Below, piece by piece: positions 919 through 63,423 of a DNA stretch of 64,000 bases. The notes under the pieces were generated by a model. It searched no databases. It had not been told where the DNA came from and worked only from the letters and a program-made list of their open reading frames with translations. A program made the position numbers and the translations under genes. Numbering within the stretch: the stretch's first letter is position 1; every line of letters starts with the position of its first letter. Source of the DNA: Cytauxzoon felis (taxonomy: Eukaryota; Apicomplexa; Aconoidasida; Piroplasmida; Theileriidae). The stretch lies in NCBI GenBank assembly GCA_020283715.1, contig JAIQCW010000118.1:62001-126000 (forward strand), read 5' to 3'.

Positions 919-3235
919 ATGTTTGGGTTTTTGAGTACAAAAGGTAATAATCAATCTGTAGTGCAGGAACAGCATAATAATAAACGCCTGAAAACTGATA
1001 TTGAGAATGATAATGGTATATTTTATCATAATTTTGCCATGTTATAATATTATATATAACCATTTCAGATAATTCTTCATATTATGATTTGTCTTATGTT
1101 GAAGGACAAATATCGCAATTAGTATCTTCAGGAATTCTGGTATTATCGTCCATCCTCTCTCTACATCTCATCATCTTATAGAATACAAGCGTTTTGGGTG
1201 ATAAAGATAAATGTGTTGTAATTTGGGAATATATCCAAAGACAATATGATGAATCTCAATCGGAATTTGATGATTTAGATATTGATTCTCGTTTAGTATC
1301 TGTCATTAGAGCATATGGTGAAGGATCAACTCTACCTTTATCGGGTCTTGTACCATTACTAAATGACGCTATTAATTTCTATTGTGCTCCTCTTACTATA
1401 GACTTAAAGCAATTGTTTAAATTTGTACCATTATTATTAATACGTAAAAATCTTGGTGAGCAATACTCATCCGATTCTGGAGTGCGATATTATGATTGTA
1501 TTCGTTCTCAATGCCTATGGGTTTGGGAATCCCCAACTCAAGATGTATTTCCAACCAATCTAATAGAATTTATTAGATCCGCACGGGAACATCGTAATCT
1601 ACTCTCACGACGATTTAAATCACTAGTAAAACTTAAAGATGCACTTAATAACAACGACAAAGATACACAAGATTACACCATTCAAACAATTCACACCGTC
1701 GATAAAAGATTGTCCACCGTTTCCATTGATAAAAAATCTAAATTAGATAAGGTCAGTCCACTCCCCCATTATACCAACGTAACGCAACCTCACTTCATTA
1801 TAACCACCTGAATGAGCTGATCCACTGAGTTGTTGTCCACGAAGGTTATACAACCTCTTCTTTTTCCTCAGACAACCATCCACTTTATGTCCTATAAGTA
1901 TATTCCCACGATCTCTGGGAGTGGCTATACTCTTTAGAGATAGGTAATTAGAAGAGCTTCCATGCAATGGGAAATAGATTATACAAGGCATGACCTATTG
2001 TATATAATAACCTTCGGTGGATAACAACTAATTCACTTTGTTCTATATCTTTATAATCTATATAGAAGAATCGCAATGAGAAAAAGGTTGGTTCTAACAT
2101 GTTACTTAACTGGCTGAAGGTGCCTAAGGACCATGTTCAAGCTCATAAGTGTGTTGTGTTGTTGAACGGTGTCGAAGGTAGTTTAGATGAGACGTTCGTT
2201 GATTTGTGTATAAAAGATGAGCAGAAATTACTGATGATATCGATTTTGAACGAATTAGATAGGATGGACGAAAATGTATCATTTATAATGAGATGTGAGT
2301 CTCATAGGAATGTATGGAATAGGATTTTTACATTAATGTCAGTTCATCGTCATTTTTATGTGGAGGATTTAACTGACCCACAAAAAAACATTTATATCGA
2401 GGATGTACATAATAATATAGAGCAGGATAAATACGGTGACAATTTATTGAAATTGATCAGGCCACGTATATTTCAAATGTATGATAATATATGGAAAAGA
2501 CCTCCAATGAGATTATTAATCTGTAGATGTAGTAATAATATCGGGGCAAAGAACCAATTGGGTATTGAATTATCATTGGACTACTTTAATGATTCTGATG
2601 AAGAGTGGTATGAACGCTATGATGCTGATGATGTCGAAATGATTAGCAGTGATGAAGAGCACGATGATGATGAAGGCGCTGATGAGGATGACGAGTGGAT
2701 TGTACATGATAGTCCTAATCATATTAGAGAATTCAGTACTGGTATATTTAATAATGATAATATTAGTGATAATATCAAAGTATATTGTTTATATAAAAAT
2801 TGGCATTGGATTATCGATGGAAATTCATTATCATCTTATGATATATGCAATCGTCAGATTGCATCCGATCATGGACTCATCGTCTCACCGTCCGTTTATG
2901 GGTTTGGGTTCGAAGGATATACCAAAAACCCCATATTGGAAATCTTCAAATGCATATCTTCCAATAAATTAACACTTGGACGTAATGGAATTGAAGATTT
3001 AATCAAATTCTGCCATGGCAAACACCAATCCAGAGACGAACTAATATACGAATTCAAAAATATTAAACCTTACATCTCAGTTGCAGAAATTAAACATAAA
3101 TTCAATAAATATCTGTTCAAAACCAAAATTGATGACACACCATATCGATGGCTCGCTACACCAAATGCCACAAAAATTTTCAATCTCAAACAACAACTCG
3201 ATAAAATACTCAAAATACACCTTAACGAATCTTAA
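919..3235 (+). CDS. Chromatin assembly factor 1 large subunit (CAF-1 p150/CHAF1A-like), four exons
   Basis: Four phase-consistent exons: 919-1015, 1069-1139, 1182-1751 and 2066-3235, giving about 635 residues. Introns are 53, 42 and 314 nt; donor AAG|GTCAGT at 1752 and acceptor TATAG at 2065 join phase 0 to phase 0. The diagnostic part is the acidic block around the DSDEEW motif, followed by a long Asp/Glu run and DDEWIVHD, which matches the DSDxEWE acidic motif of CAF-1 subunit A. The N-terminal half is not otherwise recognised. CAF-1 deposits H3-H4 on newly replicated DNA in the nucleus. The third intron is enlarged by an R1 element. The two halves could be read as separate genes, but splice phase and the lack of a separate promoter region favour one. 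Confidence 0.65.
1838..1985 (-). repeat. R1 palindromic element inside CAF-1 intron 3
   Basis: Contains the core CCACGATCTCTGGGAGTGGC, hairpin 1 CTCT-TT-AGAG (1930-1939), the linker ATAGGTAATTAGAAGAGC and hairpin 2 CCAT-GCA-ATGG (1960-1970). The terminal motif is degenerate here. The element accounts for about half of an intron that would otherwise be of normal short length. Confidence 0.85.
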
Positions 3236-3873
3236 TAAATTTATAAATCAACGTACGCTAGCGAAAATGTGAGTTGTTGTCTATCCCACAGATTACTGCA
3301 CAATTTGTATTCCACTCTCATTCACTGACGTCTATCAGTATATTCTCCGTGACATCTGGGGGTGGTTATACTTGGATCTGGTATATTATTTACGGTGCCA
3401 ATGTACTCATGTATTACGAAACTGTAGGATATCGTATTATGAATGAGATGGTGGTGATCAATAATAGTTAAATTGTGAAATTCATATGATAATTGTTAAG
3501 TCCGTATATATCATTATTAGTTATTATTGTCATGTAGTGTTAGAGTTTGATGATACGAACCTCATTAATTATTGGGCTGTGGTGTTATTTTTATTAAAAA
3601 AATCATTACAAATTATTTTTTTCATAAAAATTAAATTACTATAATACAAGCACACAAATAGTCACATGCAGAATACAATTTCTGCTGTAAAGCGGATAAC
3701 AATAGAACAAACCTCATATTATAATATATATAAAATGTGAATTAAAATAGTAAATTAGCTACTTTACAATATAATATCAAGATAAAGAGTTTTTACGTTA
3801 TTATTACAGAAATTTGGGAAATTAATATCACACGGTTGTTAAATGTAAAAAATAATATTCTTCCATCACCATT
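3236..3873. other. Convergent intergenic region with a decayed R1 copy
   Basis: Between the 3' ends of CAF-1 and the HSA/SANT gene. At about 3345-3380 the sequence CCGTGACATCTGGGGGTGG followed by TTATACTT resembles the R1 core with several substitutions and no intact hairpin. An open frame at 3274-3471 runs through this remnant and shows no recognisable domain, so I do not call it a gene. Confidence 0.45.
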
Positions 3874-6426
3874 TCACCTACGATATTGCTCATTGAATCT
3901 GTAAATGTATTCATCATCTGTATTATTCCAGTGTTGTATGGGTGGTTGATGAGGTGATCCGATATTGAGTGGGTTATACATGTATTTACCATTGATTATT
4001 GGTGGTATATTATGGTACATTTGTATGGGTTGTCTTTTAAAAATGGAATTATCGGGTGTTTGATTTCTATATAATTGTTGTCCTTTATCAATGTAATCTA
4101 ACTGATTTTGCTGCCGCACCCGATGTTTGGGTGTATTTTCAAGTGGTGTATGTGGTTTTCTTTTTAATTCGCTAGAGGTTGAAGAGGTAGAAGAGGTACT
4201 ATTTAAATTATTACTATTTACTATAATTTTCATATATGAAAATGATCCTTGAGCACATGTTTCACCTTTGGATAATGCGATTTTAGCGTATGTTGCTAAT
4301 AATTCCGGTAAATTATTCTCATCAACAGATGAATTTATATCACTTATATATCGTTGTACTAATTCTTGTGTATAACCTTGTTCATATTGGTTATCATTTT
4401 TACGCTGTTTATCCCAATTATGTATCCTAGATTTCGTTAACATTGTATTCAAATCCGCCTCAAACATCTTACTGTATAATAAATGCTGCGGAGGCACAAA
4501 TTTCGAGATGGTAGATATTGATAATGCCACTCGACGTACACGATAGTCGCATCTTATTCTACCGGAATAAAATAATGAATACACAAACATCTTGGTAGGT
4601 ATTCCTAAAAAACCAATCCTCAGTTGCTTGTGCATCTTATTAGACCATTCACTATAACCCAATTTTCTAATCAAGTCATTCTTGACGTCATAAACTTTAT
4701 AAAAATTAAAATTGCGATTTCTACACTCATCATTCACTACACCAACCTCATCTCTTATATTTTCCGGTATCAATAAACCCACATCTGCATCCGTCTCCTT
4801 CAATACTATGGTGCCCTTACTATCGTCAGTATACAATCCCAGTCGCGAAAATATGCCGTCTGATTTCGATGATCTATTCACTGTCTTTGAAAATATCTTA
4901 CATTTACCAATGTAAGATTTTATATTTTCAGTAAAAAGAAATGAATAATCACCATACCTTACAACTTCTCGTTCCAGTGACATATCATGTTCTTTCACTC
5001 CACTCGCCGTTGAGCCCTTGTTATTTAGTTTTCCATCCAATTCCCGTGGGTCAGCTACAGGTTCTCCACGTGAGGCCTTATCACTACAATCTCCACCGCC
5101 ACGATCTCTGGGAGTGGCTATACTCTTTCGAGATAGGTAATTAGAAGAGCTGTCTGCAGGACTGACCTCAGGTGGAGCATATGTTGGTGTTTCATTGGCA
5201 TCTGTGTCCATGGTTCGATTAAATGGTACAATAGGTTTGAAATATTCGACTGTAGGAGGTGGATCGATAAAAGATAGTATAGTTTTGGATTGTTTGGGTC
5301 CAAGTAGTTTTCTGGACGAGTTAATTAGTCCTCTGGGTGTTCTGGTGATTTTATTAAACGCAACTTGACATGTGTTGGAATTGAATTCATGTGCTAGCAG
5401 CCCACCGGAACAACATCTGAGATTCAGAGCAATTGCAATAAACGGCCAACATAGATCTTTTAGCATCCAGTCGTCTAACAATTCAAAATCAGCTTCGCTG
5501 GGTAAGATTTCATCCCACTTTAAAATTAATTTTTGAACATGGACAGATTGAACATTTTGTTGTTCTAGGAAATCTCTGTAATTAATTGATATACAAAATG
5601 GGTCAATATCATCTCTGGGTATCCTTCTAATAGGTAAAAATTTACCGTAAGACTGTGTAGATGTGGTAGATTGTGAACCTTTAAGCACGGATGGATTGAT
5701 ACCTTTTAAGAATATATTTGGGCTATTTTTTAAAGAATATAACAATAACATTAAAATATTATAATCGAAATCATGTCTTTTATTTAGAGATGGCAATGTG
5801 AATACATCTAATTCGTCTCTGGGCGGTCTAAATGTACAAGGATATAATTCAGCACCTAATGCAACCATATGATTTAAAGTTGATGATACAACATCATTAA
5901 CAGATTTATTAGCGTTTCTACCAATAGGTACACTTAATGCTATCAAATCAATCTCTTTTGTTGGTACAACATCTATATAATCTGTATTATTTGATAAGAC
6001 TTTGATATTACTATTATAAATCTTTGTACAATAATCATATAAACTATTAGATATATCAACTTTTTTTAAATTTAACCAGAAATTTGTAATATAAAAACAA
6101 CATTGTTTTGCTGGCCAATCATGCTTCAATTTATTTCTATTGATAACTGATAGTTGTATTGATGATATTATCTCTTTTGCTACATGCTTCTTCCATCTTC
6201 TTTCGTGATAATAATCAACAGCCATCCAATTCATTTCTTGTAATATTAAATCACGGTAACTACGACTCCTTTGCGATGGTTCTGGCGCCAATATACTATA
6301 ACCATTCTTAACCAATGAGTATACATACTTTGACATATCATAATCACTCATATCTGTTTTCTTGTTTTCATCTACCCTTATTCTATCTTCATCACCACCT
6401 TCATCCAAATCTATATCCTCCGCCAT
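3874..6426 (-). CDS. HSA/SANT-domain protein, EAF1/VID21-like (NuA4-type chromatin complex)
   Basis: Single-exon gene of 850 residues starting at the ATG at 6426. Residues about 58-95 (EMNWMAVDYYHERRWKKHVA) look like an HSA domain, which binds actin-related proteins in chromatin complexes. Residues about 300-365 (EADFELLDDW...CWPFIAIALNLR) resemble a SANT/Myb repeat, the EAF1 order. No Snf2 ATPase motifs are present, which argues against SWR1/p400. The C-terminal third is low-complexity, Asn/Gln/Pro-rich. An R1 element is embedded in frame at residues about 418-475 (PPEVSPADSSSNYLS through PVADPRELDG). Assignment to NuA4 is inference from domain order. Confidence 0.5.
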   Translation of the reverse strand: MAEDIDLDEGGDEDRIRVDENKKTDMSDYDMSKYVYSLVKNGYSILAPEPSQRSRSYRDLILQEMNWMAVDYYHERRWKKHVAKEIISSIQLSVINRNKLKHDWPAKQCCFYITNFWLNLKKVDISNSLYDYCTKIYNSNIKVLSNNTDYIDVVPTKEIDLIALSVPIGRNANKSVNDVVSSTLNHMVALGAELYPCTFRPPRDELDVFTLPSLNKRHDFDYNILMLLLYSLKNSPNIFLKGINPSVLKGSQSTTSTQSYGKFLPIRRIPRDDIDPFCISINYRDFLEQQNVQSVHVQKLILKWDEILPSEADFELLDDWMLKDLCWPFIAIALNLRCCSGGLLAHEFNSNTCQVAFNKITRTPRGLINSSRKLLGPKQSKTILSFIDPPPTVEYFKPIVPFNRTMDTDANETPTYAPPEVSPADSSSNYLSRKSIATPRDRGGGDCSDKASRGEPVADPRELDGKLNNKGSTASGVKEHDMSLEREVVRYGDYSFLFTENIKSYIGKCKIFSKTVNRSSKSDGIFSRLGLYTDDSKGTIVLKETDADVGLLIPENIRDEVGVVNDECRNRNFNFYKVYDVKNDLIRKLGYSEWSNKMHKQLRIGFLGIPTKMFVYSLFYSGRIRCDYRVRRVALSISTISKFVPPQHLLYSKMFEADLNTMLTKSRIHNWDKQRKNDNQYEQGYTQELVQRYISDINSSVDENNLPELLATYAKIALSKGETCAQGSFSYMKIIVNSNNLNSTSSTSSTSSELKRKPHTPLENTPKHRVRQQNQLDYIDKGQQLYRNQTPDNSIFKRQPIQMYHNIPPIINGKYMYNPLNIGSPHQPPIQHWNNTDDEYIYRFNEQYRR
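5003..5175 (-). repeat. R1 element embedded in the coding exon of the HSA/SANT protein
   Basis: Full-length copy: Arg-Glu-Leu module, core CCACGATCTCTGGGAGTGGC, hairpin 1 with one substitution (CTC-TTTC-GAG), hairpin 2 GTC-TGCAG-GAC and terminal ACCTCAGGTGGA. It is read in the SSNYLS frame, with Arg replacing Leu (SRKS). The flanking protein sequence is ordinary and continues in frame on both sides. Confidence 0.9.
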
Positions 6427-17009: not shown

Positions 17010-19886
17010 TTAAAGATTCCTAATTTTTCTCTTCTTTATTAAATTTGCACTTAAAATCTCTTCACCGTTGAATAATATTTCATCATTAGATTTCATATTT
17101 CCATGCAATTGCTGCTGTTTTTTTATATTCACTCTCACACCCTTCGTACTCTTTGTCAATTTCTTCACGTTTGTGGTATGTTTTCTCTTTTTAATCACAT
17201 CGTCGTCGATGATCCTATTGATATTCCTTCTATTAATTATTATATCTACAGTATAATCGTCCACAAGAGTTGATTGTACCTTTCTTCTAGGCGTTCCACG
17301 TGGAGTCCTTCTACCGGGTGTGGCACCTCCTTTATTTACTTCCCCTTCCAGCTCCCGTAGATCGCTTCCAGGTATTCCACTTGAGGTCAAATCCTCAACT
17401 TCGCCACGATCTCCGGGAGTGGCTCTACTCTTTAGAGATAGGTAATTAGGAGAGCTGTCTGCAAGACTGACGGAAGGTGTATTTGCATCAGTATTACCTT
17501 CGGTGGATGATGCCTTCGATCTGGGACTTTTATTTGTACGCTTTGTAGTTTTCCTTTTGCGCGTAGTTTTTTTATTTTCGTCACTCTGTTTTTCATTGAC
17601 TGTGGCCTTTGGGCTTTTCTTTTTACTACGTTCTTTGGGGGTAGTCTTCGCTTTGGAGCGAGTGGAAGTGCGTTCAGTAGATTTTTTACTGGAAGAAGAT
17701 GGTTTGCTGCCATCATTTGTATCCTTCTTTTTGCGTGGATATTTCTTCTTTTCTTTGGTTTGATTGGTATTTTCATCAATGGGTATTTTCAAATTTGATA
17801 GATAATGCGATAAACTTCTGTATTGTGAATTTGCTTTAATGTAAAAAAGCGGGAATGCGAGTGTATCGATTTTTACAACACGTTCTATGAGTAATTCGTG
17901 TATAATCATTTGTTTGAGTAGTACCATTGCGGTATTGGGTGTAAAATTATTTTTCCTGAGGTATCCGCAGAGTGGTTGTGATGTATTATTTTTAGACAAG
18001 AGTAATTTATGTAGAGTTAATATGGTGAAATTAAATGTTTTATTCCTGGGTGTATATAATAGCGATTCACATATGAAAGATGCATATGGCTGACAATTTT
18101 TATAGATGAATTTGATATTATCGGTTGATGAACAAATATCACAGGGTATATTACATTCTGATTGAAATTTTTGGCCGAAATAATTTAATAGAGTTACTCT
18201 TCTACATGTTAAATTATCTTCACAATAATTCATCATTTTCAAGATGTTTCTTCTAGAATTTATCAAGTGAGTATTTTCAGAAGGAGAGGAAGAAGAAGTA
18301 TTAGTGGAAGTAGTAGATGTATTATTATATGATGATTGTGTCAATGATAATAAACGCTGCATATCATGATATTCATATAAAATGATACAGGTGCTATGAT
18401 TACCATCCCTTCCAGCTCTACCGGATTCTTGAAAATAATTTTCTAAAGATTTAGGCATGGAATAATGAATAACAAATCTAACATCTTTTTTATCAATACC
18501 CATACCAAATGCTAAAGTAGCAACAATAACTTTAATACGTCCATCCATCCAGTCATGATATACACGATTTCTTTTATTCATTGTCATTTGGGCATGATAA
18601 TAACAAGCTGATACGTAATGTGAGATGGCCTTGGATACATCTTCACTTTCTTTACAACTTAAACAATAAATGATACCACATTGGTTCATAAATCTACCCG
18701 TAAGGAGTTTTATCAACAATTCCAATGATTTCTTTGCCTGTTTATCCTTTTTTATGACTTCATATCTTAAATTCATTCTATTAAAGTCAGATTTGAAAAT
18801 TATTGGATCCTTCAATCTCAATTTCTTTATAACATCTACAATAACAGATTCTGTAGCTGTAGCAGTAAATGCACAAACATTTATATTTGGGAACACAGAT
18901 TTCAATAAACCCATTTCACCATAATCTGGACGAAAATCGTTTCCCCATTGTGAAACACAATGTGCTTCATCAATAACAAATCGTGATAATCTACCAGCAC
19001 GATCCAACTTCTTAAATGAATCCAATAATAATTTAGATGATGTTAACCTTTCTGGTGTTACAAATAAAATATTAACATTCTCTGTAGTCTCTAAAATGTC
19101 ATCATAGATATTCATCTTCTCTATCCAACTTAATTCACCAACTAATGCTCTACAACCAATACCCAAATCATTTAGACGTTTCATTTGATCACGAATTAAT
19201 GCTACCAAGGGCATTACAACCACAGTTAGACAATTCCTACCCAAATATCCATCAATAACAGCTGGTAATTGAAAACAAAGCGATTTACCACCACCTGTTG
19301 GTATAATAACAAATGTATCATAACCACTCAATATACAGTTTATTACACCCAATTGATTAGGTCTAAAGCTCTCATTCTTAAATACATTCCTATTTATATC
19401 ATGAACCAACTGTGTCCAACTGAATTCTCTATTCCATTCACCAGAATTTACCGTTATGTACGGCAACTCAGAATTATTATAACTAATATCATCATCCGGT
19501 AGTACATATTTATACCTATCTCTAGTCTCATATCCTTTCAAATCACTGCCCCTTGCAGAATTATTTGTATCACTATAACCTCTTTTGTACGTCAAATCCT
19601 TATTTGAATCATCCTGCGATAATATCAATTTATATCTAAATGGCCTACGTTCAAATGGACGTAATACACACACATCTACTTTATTTATATTGTCTTTAAA
19701 AGACTTAAACTCATCCAATCTTATTGAATATAATTTATCTTCTACATTGTTACAGTTCACGTGAATTCCATCCTCTACGTTAACCTTGAAGTCATCCAAC
19801 ACATCAACTATAGACTCAAAATATTCATCATAATTATTCTCTATATCCGTATATATATTCAATTTATCAACCACTATATCCATCAA
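17010..19886 (-). CDS. RecQ-family DNA helicase
   Basis: Single frame of 958 residues. Walker A IPTGGGKSLCFQLPA at about residue 195, motif Ia, DEAH box VIDEAHCVSQWG at about 302-312, FTATAT motif III, GIIYCLS motif IV, ATLAFGMGIDKKDVRFVIH and SGRAGRDG motif VI are all visible. A zinc-binding region (CRRVTLLNYFG...CNIPCDIC, about 555-592) and a winged-helix segment follow. No HRDC domain is apparent. The C-terminal 250 residues are a Lys/Arg/Ser-rich tail, within which an R1 element is read in frame at residues about 799-863. RecQ helicases act on recombination and replication intermediates in the nucleus. Confidence 0.92.
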   Translation of the reverse strand: MMDIVVDKLNIYTDIENNYDEYFESIVDVLDDFKVNVEDGIHVNCNNVEDKLYSIRLDEFKSFKDNINKVDVCVLRPFERRPFRYKLILSQDDSNKDLTYKRGYSDTNNSARGSDLKGYETRDRYKYVLPDDDISYNNSELPYITVNSGEWNREFSWTQLVHDINRNVFKNESFRPNQLGVINCILSGYDTFVIIPTGGGKSLCFQLPAVIDGYLGRNCLTVVVMPLVALIRDQMKRLNDLGIGCRALVGELSWIEKMNIYDDILETTENVNILFVTPERLTSSKLLLDSFKKLDRAGRLSRFVIDEAHCVSQWGNDFRPDYGEMGLLKSVFPNINVCAFTATATESVIVDVIKKLRLKDPIIFKSDFNRMNLRYEVIKKDKQAKKSLELLIKLLTGRFMNQCGIIYCLSCKESEDVSKAISHYVSACYYHAQMTMNKRNRVYHDWMDGRIKVIVATLAFGMGIDKKDVRFVIHYSMPKSLENYFQESGRAGRDGNHSTCIILYEYHDMQRLLSLTQSSYNNTSTTSTNTSSSSPSENTHLINSRRNILKMMNYCEDNLTCRRVTLLNYFGQKFQSECNIPCDICSSTDNIKFIYKNCQPYASFICESLLYTPRNKTFNFTILTLHKLLLSKNNTSQPLCGYLRKNNFTPNTAMVLLKQMIIHELLIERVVKIDTLAFPLFYIKANSQYRSLSHYLSNLKIPIDENTNQTKEKKKYPRKKKDTNDGSKPSSSSKKSTERTSTRSKAKTTPKERSKKKSPKATVNEKQSDENKKTTRKRKTTKRTNKSPRSKASSTEGNTDANTPSVSLADSSPNYLSLKSRATPGDRGEVEDLTSSGIPGSDLRELEGEVNKGGATPGRRTPRGTPRRKVQSTLVDDYTVDIIINRRNINRIIDDDVIKKRKHTTNVKKLTKSTKGVRVNIKKQQQLHGNMKSNDEILFNGEEILSANLIKKRKIRNL
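17296..17490 (-). repeat. R1 element in the coding tail of RecQ
   Basis: Encodes [20 protein letters not shown], then [16 protein letters not shown]. Hairpin 1 CTCT-TT-AGAG (17428-17437) and hairpin 2 GTCT-GCA-AGAC (17457-17467) are intact. The element lies in the disordered basic tail, where an insertion would be tolerated. Confidence 0.9.
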
Positions 19887-30867: not shown

Positions 30868-31002
30868 TGTATAAATTAGATTTATTTACAAGACATTATT
30901 AAAGACATAAATAAAAACATTAAATTGACAAACGTATTATATTAAACAAATTTATTTATACAAATTAGCTAGCATATTTGGCTTATACACCACAACAGCC
31001 AA

Positions 31003-32990: not shown

Positions 32991-32999
32991 AATGAAACT

Positions 33000-46200: not shown

Positions 46201-48813
46201 GTTATTAAATGTATAAATTAATATAAATTTTAATTTATTAGCAATATCATTATATAAACCTAATCTTAGACATAATAAAATAATAAAATAAAAATTTTTA
46301 TTAATATTTAAATTATTTAATATATTTTTAATTTTTATTAATAATAATTTTTTATATTCTAAACCCCATCCTAATTTTTGTATAAAAATTTTTATATTAC
46401 AACAACTATTATTATTACTATACTTTATAATGTTATTATAATTTATAAAATCTATAATTATAAATTTATTATTAAATCTATCATTAATAATACTTTCATT
46501 AGATATTATATCATACATTAATCTTATTAAATTATTATTCATAAAATTACATAAAATTATATCATTATTAATATTATCTAAATGTAATAATGGTCTTATT
46601 AATAATCTTATATCATTATATATTATTAATTCATTAATAATATTAATATTTAATATAAATTTATTATTATCTTTAATATAACAACAACGTATTATATTAT
46701 ATAATATATCAAATATCATAACTTTTATATTATAATCACATTTCATTATAAAAGGTTGAATTAATTTCAATAATTTTATCATCTCATCAATACATAATCC
46801 ATCAATCCTAATAAAACATTTATATATCAATACCATTATCAATATATATTTTATATCCATTGTTAATAATCTAGATAATATTAATATAACCTCATCAAAA
46901 TCTATAATATCAATACCATTGTAATATAATGATAATTTATTCACAATCAATTGATAATCAATCATATCCAACATCGATGATGAACCATACCTCAATAATA
47001 ATAAATAACACTCATAAGAATAAATATCTTTAGAAGTAAATTTACCTGAGGACTTTCCGGTAGTCGTTACACCTGATGTCGTCTTGCAGACAGCTCCTCC
47101 ACTTGAGGTTACATTCCTGCCGTCAGCTCTTCTATTTACTTTCCCCTTCGCTTCCCGTAGATCAGCTCCGGGTTCCACTCGAGGTCCAGTACTATTCACC
47201 TTAGCATCATCTTCCATCATTCCCATGATGGATGATCCATCACTACCTTCACCACGATCTCTGGGAGTGGCTTTACCCTTCAGGGATAGGTAATTAGAAG
47301 AGCTGACGGCAGGACTAACCTCAGGTGGAGAATTATGGGGATAAATGTAGGGCATATTATTATTATGGGGTTTATTATCCAGATCATGGGGATGATTATC
47401 ATTATAGTGTTTTTTACCCCCATAACCCTCTATTACCCCATTATTGCCACCATTGCCACCATTGCCACGATCTCTGGGAGTGGCTCTACTCTTTAGAGAT
47501 AGATAATTAGAAGAGCTGTCTGCAAGACGAAGAGAGTTGGATTGGACCTCGAGTGGAGTACCATCACAATAATTGATATGATCATTGATGATATAAATGA
47601 GATCGAGGCAGTATGTGATGCATTCGTGTGATTTGATATTATTTTTTTTCAAGAGTGTTTCTAATCTATTTTTTTGTCGTTGTAGGATGGCATCATCTTT
47701 GAGTGATATAAGTGTAGATGAAATCATGAGATAATATTGAAGTTCATATATAATGGCTGATGTACAATCATTACTTTTATGATATTTATCTAATGTGATC
47801 CATAAATTCCAACACATACGATAGACTAATGATAATATGATAGAGGATTTGATATAATTACAACCTAATGAAATTAATACAAATGAATGGATACGTTGTG
47901 GATTCTCTTCATTATCAATAGCATTTTTATATGATAATTTTAAAAATTGTATTATAATATCATCATTCATTAATGGTATAATCTCATAAATAGTAGTTGA
48001 TGTTACATATGATAATTCATCATCTGTACTCTGTAAATTCAATCTTAATTCATTTAATATTTGAGGACTATTAACTACAAGTAATGGTGATAAGGATAAT
48101 AATTGAAGACACATTATACGAAGATTAAGATCATGTGTTGTTAACATCTGTATTAAAATATTATCAAAAACATTCGTTATAAAACTAGAAGATGGATAAC
48201 CCACATTATTCAATTGATTCATAGTCAAATCAATATCTTTATATATACAAGGGAATTCTAATCTTAAATTTCCATCATTCTGTATAGATTCTAATGACTC
48301 TATATCATTTAATAATTCACATGGCTGATATATTAAACCAAATAAATATTTTAATACCTTTAGATTACGAATCAATTGGTAATAGACAAAACTACGTACA
48401 GCACTAGACTTAGTATATAATAAAATTTCATATAATAACCGTATTAATAAATATATATATGCATAAGAATCTTCTTTATTACATTCTAATAATATATTTG
48501 ATCCATCATTATAATCAAATACTACTGATATCATCTGATGATACATAGACCTAGGTTGATCAACCAATGCCTTTAAATTAACCTGAGATATTATAGTACC
48601 AATCTGATTAATATAATAATTTAAATCATCTAATGATAAATCATTCGTACGTAATATATTATAAATCTCTAATGCAACTTCACATGATGAATTCGATGAT
48701 GCGTAGTCCGGGAAAAGATTCAACTTCCCCTCAATCACTATTCCCTCACTATAATTCTCATAATTTTTTAACCATTTTTCAAACCACTGAATATAAGTTG
48801 TATCATCTCGCAT
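43279..48813 (-). CDS. Large helical-repeat protein, tentatively Integrator subunit 7-like, four exons
   Basis: Exons 44664-48813, 44005-44135, 43907-43973 and 43279-43460 all close in phase, giving 1509 residues. The N-terminal 400 residues are HEAT/armadillo-like (LRIMCLQLLSLSPLLVVNSP, DDELSYVTSTTIYEIIPLM). The C-terminal exons encode HLPTPLGILKAYPLPFADIQ and VLQNVKFNGIIKNIK, which vaguely resemble the INTS7 C-terminus. That match is from pattern memory only. Exon 1 contains three R1-derived coding blocks (residues about 415-590, 888-1131 and 1225-1248), so nearly a third of the protein is element-derived. Between them the sequence is extremely Asn/Ile-rich. Two introns (528 and 446 nt) also hold R1 and R2 copies. 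Confidence 0.55.
43540..43790 (-). repeat. R1 element in the last intron of the Integrator-7-like gene
   Basis: Terminal CCACCTGAGGTTAC, hairpin 2 CCAT-TGC-ATGG, the GATCAGCTACGGG module, core GATCTCCGGGAGTGGC, hairpin 1 variant CCCT-TC-AGGG (43716-43725), hairpin 2 CTG-ACGG-CAG, closing GATTGGACCTCAGGTGGA. The intron is 446 nt (43461-43906). Confidence 0.92.
44170..44650. repeat. Composite R1-R2-R1 in intron 1 of the Integrator-7-like gene
   Basis: R1 left module with GTCTTGCAGACAG and GATCGCTTCCAGG, an R2 element (44279-44550), then the right module GATCTACGGGAGCTGG with hairpin 2 CCAC-GGCGA-GTGG. The closing terminal motif lies 15 nt from the exon 1 donor. Confidence 0.9.
44279..44550 (+). 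repeat. R2 element, copy c
   Basis: About 272 bp, same orientation as copy a, bounded by ACTCGAGGTCCAATC and ACCTCAAGTGGA. Its middle (CCTCACTTCATTCCAATTTA) is almost the reverse complement of copy b. Confidence 0.9.
45420..46150 (-). repeat. 730-bp array of R1 modules in the coding exon
   Basis: At least seven terminal motifs, four CCAC-N5-GTGG or CTG-CCGT-CAG hairpin-2 variants, three Arg-Glu-Leu/Ala modules and hairpin 1 CCGT-TT-ACGG (46046-46055). The translation is a tandem of [20 protein letters not shown] and [20 protein letters not shown] blocks with no stop codon. The part at 45540-45640 matches the ferlin insertion. Confidence 0.92.
47040..47570 (-). repeat. Double R1 cluster in the coding exon
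   Basis: Two core copies: hairpin 1 variant CCCT-TC-AGGG (47276-47285) and a CTCT-TT-AGAG copy near 47490, each followed by hairpin 2 (CTG-ACGG-CAG and GTCT-GCA-AGAC). It also includes the CATCAT-TCCC-ATGATG unit and a run encoding EGYGGKKHYNDNHPHDLDNK. Confidence 0.92.
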
Positions 48814-49368: not shown

Positions 49369-49951
49369 TGTAAATTAATCATTGAATTTAAGCAATTTTT
49401 AAATACTTCTGATGTTTAAAGAGCAAGTTCACACCGATGAAATGATCTATAGCTATGGCTCGTAATGGCACATGGCGAGGATAAGCACGAAGGATGTAAA
49501 CAACTCGAATGAAGTATGGGCATTAGAATTTATGTTACAGTTCTACCATCCATTCCACTCGCCATTCCTTTGTCTTGCAGACGGCTTCTTCTATTTACTT
49601 CCCCTTCCAGCTCCCATAGATCGCTTCCAGGTTCTACACGAGGTTATCATCTCTGTTCTTCGGGGTTGAAATTTTCACGTTCTTCCGGGTGATTATAATC
49701 ATTGGTATAGTTGTTATATTATAGCTAATTATGTGAATTTCACATGCCGATTGTTTGGATAATTGAGACCAAGGGGACCGAGGAAAATTTTTAGATAATT
49801 TTAAACCCGAACGAACAGACCTCAAGTGGACTACCCGTAGCTGATCTCAGGGAAGCGGAGGGAGAACTAAATAGAGAAGGCACCACGCCTAGTGGAAAGA
49901 CCTCAGGTGGAGAGCTCTCTGTATGAGAATAAGAGTGGTGCGGGTTATAAT
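49369..49951. repeat. Intergenic spacer with two R1 modules (49545-49640 and 49815-49935)
   Basis: The left module reads CCACTCGCCATTCC, GTCTTGCAGACGGC, CTATTTACTTCCCC and GATCGCTTCCAGG. The right module reads ACCTCAAGTGG, GATCTCAGGGAAGCGG, hairpin 2 CCAC-GCCTA-GTGG, ACCTCAGGTGGA and CTCT-GTATG-AGAA (imperfect). About 170 bp of unrelated sequence separate them, as if the unit had been split by an insertion. That middle part contains a GTTCTTCGGGG/TTCTTCCGGGT motif also found at 50535-50620. Confidence 0.8.
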
Positions 49952-51510
49952 TCATTGCGATATATTTTTAATATTCCAAAGTAATAGGCTTTTGACTTGT
50001 AATCTACACATATGAGATACGAGATCTAAAATTATTCAATGAGATTAAAATTAATCAAACCTTTAGAGTAGCCACCAGCAATATCCGATTCCAATAGCTC
50101 TTTCCTGTATTGATATGATTAAATGTAACCGTAATTACAAACCTCGATGTATAAACACGCCGTGGTATATCAGATTCCGATCTAATAGCTGCATTAAGTG
50201 GCTAAAGTATTATTGAAAATTAAAGCGGTAAATAAAAACCTTAGATTCAGCAGTAGATGTCATCAATGCCGCTTCATCTGCGAAATAAGCCGGACACGAT
50301 TTTTGTAAAGGCTATATGAATAGAAATTAAAGTATATACTAATTCCAGAAGAAATTTATACAGTGACCAATAGGTATAGGACGTATATACCTAGCCTTCT
50401 ACCTTATCTTCCAGTAGGCGTTATCCACCTGAGGTTAGTCCTGCCGTCAGCTCTTCTATTTACCTCCCCTCGGATTCCCGTAGATCATCCTCGGTATTAC
50501 ACTTCCACTTGAGGTCCAATCTACTATATTCGATGTCTGTTCTTCCGGGTAGACACTTTTTGTTCCTCCGGGTAGAATTTTCTGTTCTTAGGGGTTGAAA
50601 TATTTACGTTCTTCCGGATTAAAAACGCCACGATCTCCGGGAGTGGCTCTACTCTTTAGAGATAGGTAATTAGAAGAGCTGACGGCAGGACTAACCTCAG
50701 GTGGATGCGAGTGGAAGAGAGTAGGATTGGACCTCAGTTCTGATGCTCTTTCGGATACAGTTTTAAACATACATGTACGAATTCTTCGAATGTATCTCGT
50801 TTGAATGGTGTACCTTTATCTACCATCTCATAGAATGTTTTTTCAGTCTCGACAATTGATCGAACGCGTCTTTTGTGTTCGGTTTTCTGGAGGTTGAAAT
50901 TTGGCATTAACTTCAACGTACCTGTAGAGCGATATTAGAGGATATTCTGGACGCATTATTTTTTTCATAATTCTTCAAATCTTGTTCCAATTTTTTTTTC
51001 TTGACTTCATTCTTGGAAGAGATCAGGTCGATTACTGATGGAATTGATCAGTGGTAAAGATAAACATACTGAGAGTTTCACGTTCTTCTAGATATTTATT
51101 GTATTCGGGTGTCGTTTTGAAATTGACTCTTGTATCGTTGTAGCTATTGGACATTATCAACATGAATCATCATAACAAACATTTGTAATACACGTTTCCG
51201 TACATTTTTATTAGAGTTATAGTACAATGAACACATATCATATGGTACAAAAGATGCTCTAGTTATATGACAACGGCATATAGCGCATTGTGAATGGCCT
51301 GCTTGCGATACTGTAGTGAGGTGATATAAAGTTGTTATTAATATTCGGCATACATTGTCTTTCGGCACAAACATCACAACTAAATATTAAATTACATTAA
51401 TATTTTTGATATAAAACATACATTTTATGATTACATACTTCCGATATTAGAAGTGTCTTGTCGCTTAGTGGCGTTATAATCTCTAGGCATATTGGACATT
51501 CCGTATCCAT
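49952..51510 (-). CDS. MAT1, CDK-activating kinase assembly factor (TFIIH), multi-exon
   Basis: Begins MDTECPICLEIITPLSDKTL at 51510. The RING finger continues after an intron with AGHSQCAICRCHI, TRASFVPYDM and NVRKRVLQ, matching MAT1 up to the RKKVLK helix. Further exons encode TTPEYNKYLEERETL and DLISSKNEVKKKKLEQDLKNYEKNN, the MAT1 coiled coil, then helical and proline-containing C-terminal pieces ending KDLVSHMCRLQVKSLL. MAT1 links CDK7-cyclin H to TFIIH. The R1 cluster at 50390-50740 sits in an intron. Several exon borders in the 3' half are estimates. Confidence 0.75.
50390..50740 (-). repeat. R1 element in a MAT1 intron
   Basis: Contains CTG-CCGT-CAG, a diverged GGATTCCCGTAGATC module, terminal CCACTTGAGGTCCAATC, a TTCTTCCGGGT triplication (50540-50620) not seen in most copies, core GATCTCCGGGAGTGGC, hairpin 1 CTCT-TT-AGAG, hairpin 2 CTG-ACGG-CAG and GATTGGACCTCAG. 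Confidence 0.88.
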
Positions 51511-51721: not shown

Positions 51722-54700
51722 ATGGGTACTGTAAAATATCTTATAAAGGTAGATATTCATGAAGTTAAGGATGTCATATTTAAGGAGCCTGGTACGGAGG
51801 CTGATGTCGTACCGAATTTATATATAACTGTTACTGTTGGTTCTGTACAATATTCTACAGCTCAAAAAAAATCTTGCATCGAATGCTATATTTAATTCTA
51901 GTTTCAATTTTAGTGTTGATTTGACACCTACTGAATTTCAGCGTACTCGTATAATTGTATCATTACATCACAAGTATACTATACAGAGTGGTGATATAGG
52001 ACATCATGCTTTTGGTTTACCCTTTGTATATTCGAAACAGCAGCATTGTATTCATAGATCATGGGTTAGGATATTTTGTCCTATGTATCCGAATCATAAT
52101 GCGGTATGTAATAATTAATAGACATATGATATATATATATAGGGTATGTTATTAGCATCTATTGGTGTATTTGGACCTGGTGATAATGTTCCAGTATTTA
52201 AAGAGAATGTTAGTGGAACAGCTCAAGGTATTGGTGGTACAAGTACTTCTAATAATCCAGCTCGTTATGGTAAATCACCCGAGTTGAATATAAAATATTA
52301 TATTCTTTATTTTAATATTATTTGTGGTAGAGATTTTATACCTCAATCTACTGTATTATCGAAGTCATTAGCACCTTTTGTGAAGATTTGTCACTTTGGT
52401 ATTGAGGAACAGACTCATATAATAAAGGATACACCTAATCCTGAATGGCAGACTACTATTTATATCCCTTGTATCTCACCATCATCTGTAAGTTGCTTTG
52501 ATGATTTCATTCATAAATTTCAGGATGATCAAGTGACGCTAGAGGTTTGGAATGGTGAATCATCTCCTGTATTATTACATATTGAATCCATTGATTTGAG
52601 ACATTTATTAACTAATGAGTATCCACCAAAATGGATAAATATATATTCTCATACGAATTCATCTGGTATGTATGAGTTAGCACCCAACAATTATATATAT
52701 ATTTTTTAGATGTATTAAATTTAGTTAAAAATTATGTGGTTGGATTGGATAATAGTTTGACTGATTATGCTGGTAGGATATTATTAAGTGCATCAGCTAC
52801 TAATGTACAATCTGCATTGGTAAAGGGTGTTAAGCCATGTAGATCGATTATAGCACCTCCTATACAGCATAAGATTATATGGATTGATATTTATGAGGTA
52901 ATGGGGTTATCAGAATCACCATCATGTATAAAAATGGTTATATCACATGGACCATATTCTGTGAAGACGAATAAATTGATTTTAAATCAGCATGGTTCAT
53001 ATAAAATTGATGAATTTAATGGTAGATTATCGAAATTGGAACCAATTGTATCAAGTGAGTTGAGACTTGGGAACCATGAATTAATTACAACTTCAGGTAA
53101 TGATGATAGTGATATATGGGATATATTTATATATATATATAATACTAGTACAATAGATGATATAAATAATAGAATAGCATGGAAGAGGATATCATATGAA
53201 CGTATTAAAGAATCAGATGGTAAACCAATGTGGATATTAATATCATCTATAAATGATCATCATATAGATTTATTTAATGTATTGATATCATTTGATTTAA
53301 CAGAAATTAGAAAAGAAAGATTAAAATATAATCTTACAAAATATATATTTAGAAGTATGATTTATGAGATACATCAATTACCATGTTTAGATTTTAATAA
53401 TTTTTTAGATTGTTATGTAGAGGTATATTGGAAAAAAAAACCCATAATTCATATATTTAATTTATTTAGATTGAACTTGGTGGTTATAATATAAAATCTA
53501 AAATTATTAAAGGTACATTAAATCCATTATTTTATGAAGCTAAAGAAATTGAAATATTATTACCAACAAATTTATTATTAGCCCCAGATATAAAAATAAA
53601 TATATATTCTATATCAAAATCATTATTTGATACAAAATTATTATTATGTAATGGTAATTATAATTTAATTAAAGTACCAAAAGAATGGAAAAAAGCCCCA
53701 TTATGGTTAAATTTAAAATCAAATATAAATTCATTACATAAACCAAAAATATTATTAGCATTTGAATTAATATTATATGATGAATATAAAAAAAATTTAA
53801 ATTTATATCAATTTTTTGATGATATTATACCATCTACTATTAATTCTATTATCTCTATATTATTAATTGGTATAAGATTATATAAATCATTAATTAAACC
53901 TAAAGTTATTATAAAATTATCTAATCTAAATAATATAATACATAATTGCTACCCCATCTCTGGATCTAATGGTAATTGGAATTATCTAACCATACATGAA
54001 ATTAATTGCCAATTACCTAAACGTATGCAACATCAATGCTATCTAGAATTTATTATTTTAAATGATGATGGGGGAAATTATGGGGGAAGTGGGAATTATG
54101 GGGGTAGTTGTTTTGGTATAACATATGTATCATTAAATGAATTTTTACCATGGTTGACAATAGATGAAAGGAATATATCTAAAGAATTATTTAAAATACA
54201 AGTATTAGATGATTTTTTATCTATAATGGAACAAACGAATATAGATGTAGAAGATGAAGATAAGAATAAAAGAGGGAAAATTATAAATGATGATATTACA
54301 TTAATGAATACAAGACTAGTAGAAAAATTTGATCTAGTATCATTACAAAAAGTAGGAGATGCACCCATAAATGATACAGAATTTGATTTCAATATAATAG
54401 AATATAATGATGGTGATGATCTACAACGAGATGAATTGTCATATGAAATGGAATACGACTTTGCAATCGAAGATCTACCATACATGAAAGCACCCATACT
54501 GTCATGCACCAATGAAGGTGTACCAGAAGTCGTAGGTACACTCAAATTCATGTGCAATGTAACAGAAGATAAATCTCCACTTGAGGTCCAATCCAACTCT
54601 GATCCACTCGCCGTGGAGGCCTCTTCCAATTATTTCCCCGTACACGGTAATGCCACTCCCGGAGATCGTGGCGGAGGTGGGGTAAAAGAGGGTTATGGGG

Positions 54701-56109
54701 ATAAAAAACACTATAATTCAGATAAAAAACCCCATGATTCACATGTAGTCCAATCTAAAGCTGACTACAAGACCTCAAGTGGAGGTGGAAAACCCGAGAG
54801 CGATCCACGGGAACTTGAGGGGGAAGTAAATAGAAGAGGCCACCACGGCGAGTGGAAGACCTCAGGTGGAGGCGAGTGGAATAGAGGTGTAGTTGATAAG
54901 ACCTCAAGTGGAACGGATGATATAATGGATAGGATGAGTTATCATAAGCGTAGGTTATTGGATTTGTATTCATGTGCAAAAGAGTTGGTGGTTCGTGTAT
55001 ATATATTACAGGTTCGTGGTTTATATTTGGATTCGGGTACTAATGAGATGAGTACATATTTATGGATAAGGAATATAGATGATGATAATGTTATTGGTAG
55101 GACTAGTTATCCTAATAATATACGTGATGTAAATAATATAAAATATGGTTTAAAGCCTACATTTAATTCATGTTATAATATAAGTTGTTCATTACCAGAG
55201 ACATCTATATTAAAGATAAGTATAATAAGTCAAGGTGCTATTGCTGATGAAATAATAGGTACTACATTTATTGATTGTGAAGATAGATTTTTTAATCAAA
55301 AATTACAACAATTAATGTTAGATGATATAGTACCTATTGAATTACGTACACTAAAAAATGAAACATCTACTATATCACATGGTACTATGAAATGTTGGAT
55401 AGAAATGATGGATTATAATACAGCAAAAATGAAACCTATAAAAAATTTTAGTAATCTTGAACCAGCTGATTATGAAATGAGAGTTGTTATATGGAAAGCT
55501 AAATGTATAATGGATAATATTTCTAGTATATCATTATTTGTACGTGGTATATTACAAACTGAAAATAATGAATCAACATGTGATACTGATGTACATTATA
55601 ATAGTAAAGATGGTAATGCTATCTTTAATTGGAGAATGAAATTCCAATTAAGAATACCCAGTGAATATTCTAATTTTAAATTACAATTATATAGTTATAG
55701 TCTTATATCTAATAATGAACTACTTGGTGAAGCTATTGTTGATTTATCATCTGATTTCAATAAAATACGTAGAAAAAATTCTATACATAATATACCCAAA
55801 TTCTGGATCGATTGCTTCCATGCCGCACATGGATTACAATCTAAAGGATCTATCGAAACCGAAATATCATTCATTACAAATTGTGATGCACAAGTTTATA
55901 CAGTCGGTATCGGTAGAGATGCACCCAATCGAGACCCATTCCTACCACCCGTACTCGAAAATAGAACACTTGTCGATTGGGAAGGTGTCAAAGAAACCAT
56001 CGATAACGCAAGCGGTGCAATACTCTCCGGATTCAAAATCACCGGTATCTTCATCTCAATCGCTGCAGCATTCGCACTATTCATACTCGTACTCATTATC
56101 ATTAAATGA
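51722..56109 (+). CDS. Ferlin-type multi-C2-domain membrane protein, several exons with one apparent frameshift
   Basis: Starts MGTVKYLIKVDIHEVKDVIF. The frame breaks at A8 (51864-51871); the homologous reading continues as KKNLASNAIFNSSFNFSVDL. Short introns follow near 52105, 52490, 52709 and 53420-53470, and the last exon (from 53471) is open to 56109, with no ATG until 54025. Several C2-like blocks are visible (GRDFIPQSTVLSKSLAPFVKI, NPEWQTTIYIP; LRVYILQVRGLYLDSG; YEMRVVIWKAKCIMDN). The C-terminus is a single transmembrane helix (GIFISIAAAFALFILVLIIIK), the ferlin topology. Ferlins mediate Ca2+-dependent vesicle fusion, in apicomplexans including microneme secretion. An R1 cluster is inserted in frame at 54573-54925. 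Confidence 0.85.
54573..54925 (+). repeat. R1 cluster in the last ferlin exon
   Basis: Read in the SSNYFPVHGNATPGDRG frame. Hairpin 2 CCAC-TCGCC-GTGG, hairpin 1 variant CCGT-AC-ACGG (54638-54647), core GCCACTCCCGGAGATCGTGG, a 95-bp segment encoding EGYGDKKHYNSDKKPHDSHV that recurs in the Integrator-7-like exon, then [14 protein letters not shown] and CCAC-GGCGA-GTGG. It lies between two C2 regions. Confidence 0.93.
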
Positions 56110-56763
56110 AGATAGTGAGTGAATGTAGTGAATGAACGCAGTGAATGAACGTAGTGAAGCTAATCCACCTGAGGTATAATCCACCTTTCCTTCGTCTTGC
56201 AGACGGCCTTCTCTATTTACTTCCCCCTACGCTTCCCTGAGATCAGCTGCGGGTTATAACATTTAATTAATTTACGTCAATTTACTATAACAATTTTATA
56301 TTTTATGTATAATACTATTTATAACTGAAGTATAGTTTTTTAATAATTTATAGAAGTATATATAGTTAGTATTATTATAAGTATAATATAGTTACTATAC
56401 TTCATATCATGTTAATAGTATTATAGTATATATATTATTATAATTATTTATATTAATACATCAATACATCATACAACTATATTTCATCCTTCAATTGTAT
56501 TGATATAAGAGTAAATGTTATTGTAAAAGACGAATCTTCATTAGACGGTTAAAAGGTGGAAAATTATTGTGCATTAACCCCATTATTATGGGGTATGTGT
56601 GGTTTAGGTGAGTGTAATTATTTATCTAAATTGTAACCTGGAAGCGATCTATGGGAGCTGGAAGGGGAAGTAAATAGAAGAGGCCACCACGGCGAGTGGA
56701 GAAGAGTTGGATTGGACCTCGAGTGGAAGGTAATCATCGAGGATGACGAGTGAATATAAAATG
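56110..56763. other. Convergent intergenic region with R1 fragments and a duplicated AT-rich block
   Basis: Contains a GTGAATGAACG-type simple repeat (56108-56160), an R1 fragment (56163-56258, CTTGCAGACGG and GATCAGCTGCGGG), an AT-rich block (about 56325-56510) duplicated at 62970-63165, and a second R1 fragment (56630-56735, GATCTATGGGAGCTGG and CCAC-GGCGA-GTGG). No gene. Confidence 0.75.
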
Positions 56764-59585: not shown

Positions 59586-60322
59586 TTCCGATATGCACTC
59601 TATTTTCCATCTCTACTCCAAATTATCCCTCTCCCATTATTCAATGAAATAGTATCCTGACATCTATTCACTACATTCTACTCTTCCATTTGCATTCCAC
59701 CTGAGGTCCAATCCACCATGTCTTCCACTCGCCGTCAGCTTCCTCTTCTAATTACTTCCCCCTCCGCTTCCCGTAGATCGCTTCCGGGTATTCCACTTGA
59801 GGTCCAATCAATAATTTCACTGCTTCAATTTTACCTTCAAATTTTGAAGGAAATCCTGAAATTCTGAGGAAACTCATGAATATTGTGGAGTAACGATTGA
59901 ATGAAATTTAGATGTCAATATCTCATTGAAAAGGAATTTGATGATTCTATTGAGTCTATTATCCTTCTTTCTTTCCAATTTATATTCATTGAGATGTCTG
60001 TCCAAACATAGATTCCGTCACCTTAGACATATCTCATTGAGATTAGAAATTAACCTCAAGTGGACTACCCGTAGCTGATCTCAGGGAAGCAGAGGGGGAA
60101 GTAAATAGAGAAGCAGTCTGTAGGACCAGGAGAGTAGGATTGAACCTCAAGTGGTGGCAGGTGGTAAGGAAGTTTATAGAATCTCATGTGAAGTGTTCAT
60201 CATGTTCTCTCTGGTTAGTTATTGTGATTAAAGTGTATGTTATGTCAAGTTTATTGTTAATTGTAATGTAGTATAATGTAATTTATAATTTAATTTAATA
60301 TTAATTGAATATATATGTGAAT
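59586..60322. repeat. Intergenic region with R1-R2-R1 composite (59695-60165)
   Basis: Terminal CCACCTGAGGTCCAATCC, CCACTCGCCGTCAGC (a hybrid of two hairpin-2 types), CTAATTACTTCCCC, GATCGCTTCCGGG, an R2 element (59793-60064), GATCTCAGGGAAGC, CAGTCTGTAGGAC and closing AACCTCAAGTGG. It separates the transporter-like gene from the cysteine-rich gene. Confidence 0.88.
59793..60064 (+). repeat. R2 element, copy d
   Basis: About 272 bp, bounded by CCACTTGAGGTCCAATC and ACCTCAAGTGGA. It is the most diverged of the four copies (for example GAGATGTCTGTCCAAACATA instead of the usual form). Confidence 0.88.
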
Positions 60323-62926: not shown

Positions 62927-63423
62927 TGATAATAATAAAGTTTTATAATCTGATTCAAGGAAGATTATTATTTATAATTGAAGTATATAATTATTATAAT
63001 TTTATGATGTATAATTATCTATATATATCTATTGCAAACTTATGTAGGTAGTATACTTTAATTAATGTTAGTAGTATTATAATATATATATTATATTAAT
63101 TATTTATATGAATACTCATATATCATCATACAACTATACATCATCCTTCAATTGTATTGATGTAGTATTATATATTACTGGAAGGATATGAAATTGATAT
63201 AATGTATTTGAAATATGGGGTGTGCCACATAATTGTGGTGTTATATGAAGTATAGTACATGACCTCAGGTGGAGAACCCGCAGCTGATCTACGTGAAGCG
63301 GAGGGGGAAGTAAATGGAAGAGCTGTCTGCAAGACGACCTCAGGTTGAACAAAAGACTGGGATTTTACATTGAATATAAATTATATAGAGTATATTATAT
63401 TATTGTAATATAGTTTGAGGATA
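62927..63423. other. Intergenic region with duplicated AT-rich block and R1 fragment
   Basis: About 62970-63165 duplicates the block at 56325-56510 (shared TCATACAACTATA and CATCCTTCAATTGTATTGAT). An R1 fragment (63258-63350) reads ACCTCAGGTGGAG, GATCTACGTGAAGCGG, GTCT-GCA-AGAC and ACCTCAGG. It precedes the start of the cysteine-rich gene and follows the stop of the ATPase. Confidence 0.8.

Follow-up and report, generated by a model that had tools for sequence, protein, structure and literature searches.

R1, a modular palindromic repeat in exons, introns and intergenic DNA of the Cytauxzoon felis nuclear genome

Short palindromic elements that lie in frame inside genes are known from Rickettsia. 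As reviewed, these Rickettsia palindromic elements (RPEs) are bacterial sequences of about 150 bp, with ten families and 44 integrations in the first report (PMC10969869). Exchange of hairpins is a feature of the GC clusters found in yeast mitochondria, where hairpins rich in GC are set in AT-rich DNA and palindromic units undergo merger and shuffling (PMC4478555). These clusters are mostly intergenic, the commonest being 42 nt long, and are flanked by AG or ACT repeats, and all four differences between the GC42 versions of two species fall in loops. Among alveolates, Amoebophrya has introner elements, hairpin-bearing repeats that occur across its genes as introns with direct repeats at their borders (PMC7789003). 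The present analysis concerns R1, a hairpin-rich repeat found in a stretch of 64,000 nucleotides from the piroplasm Cytauxzoon felis, a parasite of cats in the family Theileriidae (contig JAIQCW010000118.1, positions 62,001 to 126,000; C68:62001-126000), called the window below. The genome analyzed totals 8.62 Mb in 181 contigs, and the window apparently belongs to the published contigs, which in 2013 numbered 361 with 9.1 Mb, 31.8% GC and 66-69% coding sequence (PMC3748084).

R1 is a short, hairpin-rich palindromic repeat that lies in frame in many unrelated genes and yields a recurring peptide, so that the parallel with RPEs drawn in an earlier note on the window holds on behavior. Unlike RPEs, it is nuclear, has thousands of copies and exchangeable hairpin arms, and also occupies introns. 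No relation in sequence was found: the A core of R1 has one exact match in GTDB, on a Gemmatimonadetes contig, where about 0.9 would be expected by chance, in a test of this one core that left RPE consensus sequences uncompared. Membership of R1 in the Rickettsia families is unsupported. Like the yeast clusters, R1 has GC-rich hairpins and shuffled palindromic units; unlike them, it is nuclear, is mostly 70-360 bp long, shows no detected duplication of 3-12 nt and lies in frame in coding open reading frames (ORFs). The R1 contig carries genes for MTR4, RecQ, ferlin and NOT1, which does not fit a mitochondrial location. RPEs are closest to R1 in behavior, and the mitochondrial GC clusters are closest in hairpin shuffling.

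Other families share single traits with R1. The mobile unit of REPINs or REP elements with RAYT consists of two inverted hairpin units that are recognized as folded single strands. R1 is likewise built of two inverted hairpin units, but REPINs are bacterial, and no Y1_Tnp match was found in the C. felis genome. R1 is short and abundant and has inverted ends, as do miniature inverted-repeat transposable elements (MITEs), but neither a duplication nor a transposase was found for it in the tests run. As with the Amoebophrya introners, a hairpin-bearing repeat has spread through genes; unlike them, R1 sets no splice sites in the three introns inspected and is kept in the mRNA of the gene cf76. The top-ranked open-licence literature yielded no description of such an element for Cytauxzoon or for another nucleus, and a nuclear counterpart of the in-frame elements of Rickettsia therefore appears to be new, as far as could be found.

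Abundance and anatomy of R1

The earlier note had proposed a modular palindromic family present in both orientations, and this observation is confirmed in the window. The terminal motif TCCACYTGAGGTCCAATCC matches 30 times at up to three mismatches and not once in any of 100 dinucleotide shuffles, the core CCACGATCTCYGGGAGTGGC matches 16 times (14 exactly, two with one mismatch) with none in shuffles, and CTATTTACTTCCCC matches 27 times at up to two mismatches against 0.57 expected. A motif parser finds 30 clusters covering 5,341 bp, in both orientations. The figure of more than 20 copies given earlier is far too low for the genome, in which exact A cores number 2,351 (1,208 + 1,143) and exact B cores 3,330, spread over very many contigs, with zero matches to either reversed control.

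Further counts come from a sample composed of the window and 20 other stretches (258,711 bp, 3% of the genome). It is non-random, leaving out L001-L008 and loci fetched later, and is somewhat denser than the genome (309 versus 273 A cores and 417 versus 386 B cores per Mb). Its GC content is 32.2%, and about 62% of it outside elements is called coding on the basis of ORFs and codon use. The sample holds 156 clusters, mostly of 70-360 bp, which make up 11.5% of its length; scaled by core density, this extrapolates to about 4,600 clusters in the whole genome. Spacing along the sample is random-like (coefficient of variation 1.05), and density, as noted in connection with L022-L025 (contig C8), is uneven among stretches, with 11-12 clusters per 10 kb in some and 2-5 in many others. 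The statement that R1 occupies most intergenic spacers proved about half right: an element is present in 11 of the 26 window gaps between called coding ORFs, introns included (9 of the 15 gaps of at least 400 bp), and in 69 of 145 such gaps across the sample. Searches of known collections were negative. The window has no Rfam match at gathering score, and in a relaxed search, an I-type element had none and a canonical element had two weak microRNA matches far below cut-off; a phage collection searched with one element, and viral contigs searched with both exact cores, gave no match.

A full copy has two outward-pointing arms, A and B. A cluster runs from a terminal motif through an exchangeable hairpin, a linker and the reversed arm B to another terminal motif, and then through a center, the forward arm A, the hairpin hp2, a linker and an exchangeable hairpin to a closing terminal motif. 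Each arm carries the hairpin hp1, in which the 11-nt loop is constant and the stem can be exchanged, the linker GTAAWTRGAAGAG and a second exchangeable hairpin. The elements are closed by the terminal motifs TCCACYTGAGGT, which also occur within clusters, and the ends are sharp at T-CCAC. In two variable bases, left and right end motifs agree in 18 of 37 cases versus 13.2 when shuffled (standard deviation 2.2), which is suggestive only.

The hp1 loop reads GATCTMMGGGA, whereas its stem is exchanged as a set. Among 243 exact loops, there are six distinct fully paired stems, namely CAC/GTG (93), GCT/AGC (83), AGC/GCT (39) and the rarer AAC/GTT (7), GAT/ATC (5) and GAC/GTC (1); the remaining 15 have wobble or broken stems. 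Pairing occurs in 96% of cells versus 41% after the arms are re-dealt (maximum 50%). The stems of hp2 (CTCT/AGAG, CCGT/ACGG, CCCT/AGGG and CCCA/TGGG, around a two-base loop) pair in 98% versus 79% (maximum 85%). The outer hairpins in use are GTCT-GCA-AGAC, CTCT-GCA-AGAG, CCAT-GCA-ATGG, CCAC-GGCGA-GTGG, CCAC-GCCTA-GTGG and CTG-ACGG-CAG, and arm B carries a second outer stem, CCC/GGG or CCT/AGG. In three stems (hp1, 8:8; hp2, 2:1; outer stem of B, 5:5), G-T mismatches are about as rare as A-C mismatches, with totals of 15 and 14, and there is no sign of RNA-strand bias. Since RNA would favor G-U, pairing seems to matter at the level of DNA, a conclusion drawn from few events.

In a longer class, a center of about 242 nt, the I center, lies between two divergent arms, as in all 18 copies of at least 220 nt. 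None of 20 I-center matches (query included) is within a called coding ORF, and a translated copy has stops in all six frames. A structured RNA in this center is unsupported: the consensus fold has 21 pairs, none with a change on both sides.

R1 in reading frames, introns and an mRNA

The earlier note had placed copies in the exons of five genes, and 9 of the 30 window clusters do lie in five ORFs called coding. When seven edge clusters are dropped from the sample (156 to 149), 32 of the 149 fall in 19 such ORFs, 21% against a coding share of 62% (binomial p 7e-24). This count follows the looser of two classifications, the strict one giving 14, and the weakest ORFs of the looser one (e.g., 44650-48825 and L009:3-5000) may not correspond to genes in the form called here. 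Within coding ORFs, all 25 recognized A arms are antisense and all 27 recognized B arms sense, while two of the 32 clusters have no recognized arm; between same-strand ORFs, the only clusters kept for the count outside coding ORFs (64), orientation is even, 20:20 and 28:27. The B-A spacing is 1 mod 3 in all 16 pairs in coding ORFs, which are all open in one common frame. One orientation and frame in coding ORFs, with evenness elsewhere, is as would be expected if insertion were blind to genes and selection for an open reading frame followed.

The element peptide recurs across unrelated genes, and example peptides contain ADLREAEGEVNR. Peptides from a 1392-aa ORF had no match at E<=0.001 among 8,000 candidates scored, but this negative carries little weight, cf76 (723 aa) being outside the query length range; a NOG1-like query did match cf76. 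As for selection on the peptide, B arms have 34 synonymous and 76 nonsynonymous changes in coding ORFs versus 62 and 179 outside, and position-3 changes are slightly commoner in coding-ORF arms (p=0.08); no such selection is claimed.

In three genes, the inserts could be compared with relatives, as the earlier note had proposed. The window ferlin is closest to piroplasm ferlins, and its insert at the element, of more than 100 residues, is missing from all six piroplasm orthologs aligned (six of seven hits), from Babesia duncani, Theileria equi, Babesia sp. Xinjiang, B. divergens, B. ovata and T. orientalis. A NOG1-like GTPase (L024:5392-6744) carries one element at residues 101-217 and another at residues 267-349, both located after the P-loop and before the next switch region. 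The four Theileria NOG1-like proteins aligned, a subset of the hits, have a far shorter stretch at this position, and the archaeal structure 2e87 has four residues there (whole-protein E 5e-8, with single pieces weak). The G domain of this protein is split by some 250-300 extra residues. In a glutamate-cysteine ligase (L023:8066-10000), the element occupies residues 265-354, and the stretch around it has 155 residues (230-384) versus 29 in structure 3ig5, which we take to be the yeast enzyme. The R1 segments are thus absent from the six ferlins, the four Theileria proteins and 3ig5, and, judged by alignment, the inserts are extra in all three genes.

These absences also bear on the reading of R1 as an assembly artefact or as ordinary ancestral coding repeats. 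The assembly does derive from 454 sequencing (PMC3748084). However, the copies lie on very many contigs, orthologs or structures lack the segments in the case of three genes, and the carrier cf76 was cloned from cDNA and sequenced from eleven samples. For the tested loci, this reading is already unlikely, and as an account of the family it is scarcely credible.

The case of cf76 places R1 in a transcript. The genome protein at C114:6540-8708 is 100% identical to cf76 over 723 residues, the published position being contig00195:6540-8711 (PMC6310948), and it contains two R1 copies. The gene is described as having a single exon; its ORF of 2,172 bp was amplified from C. felis cDNA, and its sequence was obtained for eleven samples (PMC3748084). 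By this cDNA cloning, R1 is present in one mRNA. Two of the published cf76 subdomain primers include the terminal motif along with a portion of the A core. An alignment of two cf76 sequences from databases shows differences in 61 columns (gap columns counted singly). Of these, 49 lie in residues 171-290, which cover copy 1 and its edges, and 12 in residues 119-170 or 291-305, with none past 305, so that R1 copies hold most of the differences between the two. The one variation that the paper describes for the C-terminal region is a 30-bp tandem repeat, found in two copies in 10 of 11 samples, and this is the one use of "repeat" in its main text (PMC3748084). Copy 2 has EADGRNVTSGG twice, a 33-bp unit that may or may not be the published repeat. 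Among the 95 genome matches to cf76 listed, itself included, most are over the copy regions.

That R1 makes introns in the manner of introners, the copies in coding ORFs being in fact spliced, is highly improbable. Such a view could draw on the 31 clusters in gaps of less than 700 bp between coding ORFs, which are intron-like distances, and on the copies in MTR4 introns. However, the donor and acceptor lie outside the element in all three MTR4 introns inspected, two of which have exons on both sides that align to MTR4 structures, the third being read by eye on the acceptor side. Where the inserts begin, neither the NOG1-like ORF nor the ligase ORF has a GTANGW or GTRAG donor, weaker GT donors being possible, and in ferlin the nearest match is 15 codons upstream of the insert, in conserved sequence. 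In addition, copies in coding ORFs have one orientation and frame, unlike the others, and the single-exon, cDNA-amplified cf76 retains both of its copies.

How R1 may have spread

Taken together, these results suggest that R1 is probably a large family of interspersed elements, short, palindromic and non-autonomous, in the C. felis nuclear genome; how it spread, we infer as follows. Copies would arise and mix as DNA by the copying of short structured tracts, with occasional insertion. Copying might proceed by hairpin-nucleated template switching or by short-tract conversion, perhaps helped by a putative enzyme that binds the folded hairpin. Insertion would be blind to genes, selection would then purge most exonic insertions unless they lay in an open frame, and the surviving exonic copies would be translated as hydrophilic inserts. 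The mosaic structure of the longer class is in keeping with such copying. The I centers at 41370 and 44291 are identical over 144 columns, beyond which they differ, and in 19 of 153 I-center pairs, identical runs were reached by at most 1 of 200 shuffles (p<=0.005), where about one pair would be expected. Some of these tracts link copies on separate contigs (L017 on C4 with L023 on C8, 55 columns). Long stretches of identity in copies that have diverged elsewhere point to copying or conversion at the level of DNA.

Several observations weigh against this account. Rate variation along the I center can inflate the tract test, and when hp1 is counted on its 15 distinct stem combinations, the pairing excess is modest, 64% versus 39% with a shuffle maximum of 62%. 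The orientations of A and B within one element are not independent. Outside coding ORFs, frame-compatible spacing exceeds one third (28 of 58 pairs, p=0.018) and 22 of the 58 pairs are open in the same frame as those in coding ORFs, which may reflect errors in some of the calls or an origin from coding copies. The disfavored orientation is itself partly open, with nine open frames A-sense versus 20 A-antisense in 71 outside clusters. B arms are more diverged in coding ORFs (4.8 differences per arm, 29 arms) than outside (2.8, 101 arms), which plain recent spread does not predict. No BLAST alignment of at least 100 bp in the sample reaches 95% identity as a whole, shorter identical tracts occurring within longer alignments below that level, and for the canonical element at 43541..43783, the best other copy in the genome, among the 40 candidates scored out of 2,852, is 88% identical across 209 bp. 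No insertion event was seen directly, and present activity is unproven. Finally, arm cores are far better kept than linkers, which could indicate function rather than mobility, and no mobilizing enzyme was identified among the families searched with working controls.

The question of function leads to the view that R1 is a structured element of use to the host, such as a chromatin, replication or RNA-processing signal, selected at thousands of places and mobile only in the distant past. Most arm-core columns are 93-100% conserved versus mostly 30-60% for the flanking linkers, and within a class, arms are 89% identical versus 78% for the I center of the same elements, as that view would have it. 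However, orientation is even and spacing random-like, about half of the non-coding gaps have no element, and copies lie inside enzyme domains; we consider a host function of this kind unlikely.

It has also been considered that R1 consists of ordinary MITEs, internally deleted relatives of a DNA transposon whose transposase recognizes the terminal motifs, the shuffling being a product of nesting. The inverted terminal motifs with their sharp boundary, the terminal motifs within clusters and the long class with its center between divergent arms are all compatible with MITEs. In contrast, no target-site duplication of 3-12 nt was found in the 36 clusters with both end motifs (mean 0.58 versus 0.61 shuffled), in a test that scored no 2-nt matches and in which cluster ends may differ from true insertion ends. 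Genome searches for Y1_Tnp, DDE_3 and MULE gave no match while their controls rang; the Helitron and hAT controls were silent and other families were not searched. The earlier note had asked about a dedicated autonomous transposon, and the answer is negative for these three families and incomplete for the rest. The one reverse-transcriptase (RVT_1) locus found has a Telomerase_RBD domain, so that no source other than telomerase was found for a reading of R1 as a short interspersed element. The I-center copy, with its stops in all six frames, also speaks against MITEs, and MITEs are not known to exchange whole stems while the loop stays fixed. The MITE explanation is therefore rather doubtful.

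A stronger form of the preferred account, that R1 is a non-autonomous family spread as DNA, can be put forward tentatively. R1 may be a mobile or self-mixing nuclear DNA family that is recognized by shape (the fixed 11-nt loop with swappable stems), is copied as folded single-stranded DNA and has given rise to hundreds of translated inserts, including some in catalytic domains, and provides the variable part of a major surface antigen. By extrapolation, the translated inserts would number in the hundreds, on the order of 1,000 in the genome.

R1 in the window and its meaning for C. felis

The R1 features of the window are given in Table 1. ORF 3877-6441 (-) has a weak HSA-domain match below the Pfam cut-off, and the element in the RecQ-family ORF sits C-terminal to the conserved helicase region.

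Table 1. R1 elements and clusters in the window (positions in the window)
Position	Strand	Feature	Remark
1906..1970	+	A arm: hp1 (CCAC-loop-GTGG), hp2, linker, CCAT-GCA-ATGG hairpin	Outside called coding ORFs
4999..5175	+	Element in ORF 3877-6441 (-)	A arm antisense to gene, frame open
17348..17467	+	Element (B reverse, A forward)	In RecQ-family helicase ORF 17013-19925 (-)
20023..20135	-	A-arm element	Outside called coding ORFs
26820..27367	.	Composite: B arm, I center (26980-27215), A arm with terminal motifs	
31487..31936	+	Element cluster in ORF 31006-32631 (-)	B sense, A antisense
36231..36468	+	Canonical element T-H-B-T-A-hp2-H-T	
37314..37532	+	Canonical element	
39638..39869	-	Canonical element	In probable MTR4 intron (acceptor read by eye)
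40407..40640	+	Canonical element	In MTR4 intron; donor and acceptor outside element
41256..41733	.	B - I center (41370-41611) - B element	In MTR4 intron; donor GTATGT just before, acceptor ~41178
43541..43783	+	Canonical element	Upstream of MTR4 coding region
44174..44644	.	B - I center (44291-44532) - B element	144-column identical tract in common with copy at 41370
45419..46143	+	Two clusters in ORF 44650-48825 (-)	Weak coding support
47081..47556	+	Two clusters in ORF 44650-48825 (-)	
49554..49910	.	Two clusters with B arms	Outside called coding ORFs
50425..50704	.	B-type remnant and A arm	Outside called coding ORFs
54577..54911	-	Element in frame within ferlin ORF 53470-56106 (+)	
56165..56726	.	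Two clusters with B arms	Outside called coding ORFs
59697..60154	.	Element: I center (59806-60046), arms either side	
63261..63347	+	B arm with terminal motifs	

Other features were seen beside these. A short repeated module like TTCTTCCGGGTTGA occurs several times next to R1 elements (L022, L024 and window ~49650-50620), and a 52-bp tandem repeat at 32856-33011 has two exact copies and a diverged third. The window also encodes a NOT1-like CCR4-NOT scaffold (8163-14783, -) and a guanylate-binding-protein-like GTPase (27421-30885, -). ORF 56767-59457 (-), which has no Pfam match, is a member of a multigene family with tblastn relatives, 27-54% identical, in seven other sampled stretches (L011-L013, L015-L017 and L019); a 736-bp stretch of this family is 90% identical in DNA to L013 (L013:108-2834). 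The adjoining ORF 60326-62971 (-), of 882 aa, also has no Pfam match.

Piroplasm genomes are, to our knowledge, regarded as compact and almost free of mobile elements, yet more than one-tenth of the sampled C. felis sequence consists of one hairpin family that reaches into conserved enzymes. For cf76, a surface antigen and vaccine candidate, there may be a practical consequence for research on cytauxzoonosis. Because its copies encode peptides common to many reading frames, and primers used for its fragments lie in the element, the reactivity of antibodies to cf76 fragments may partly be reactivity to the repeat. More generally, R1 opens a direct test of how far a nucleus tolerates in-frame insertions and of whether the shape of DNA can drive copying.

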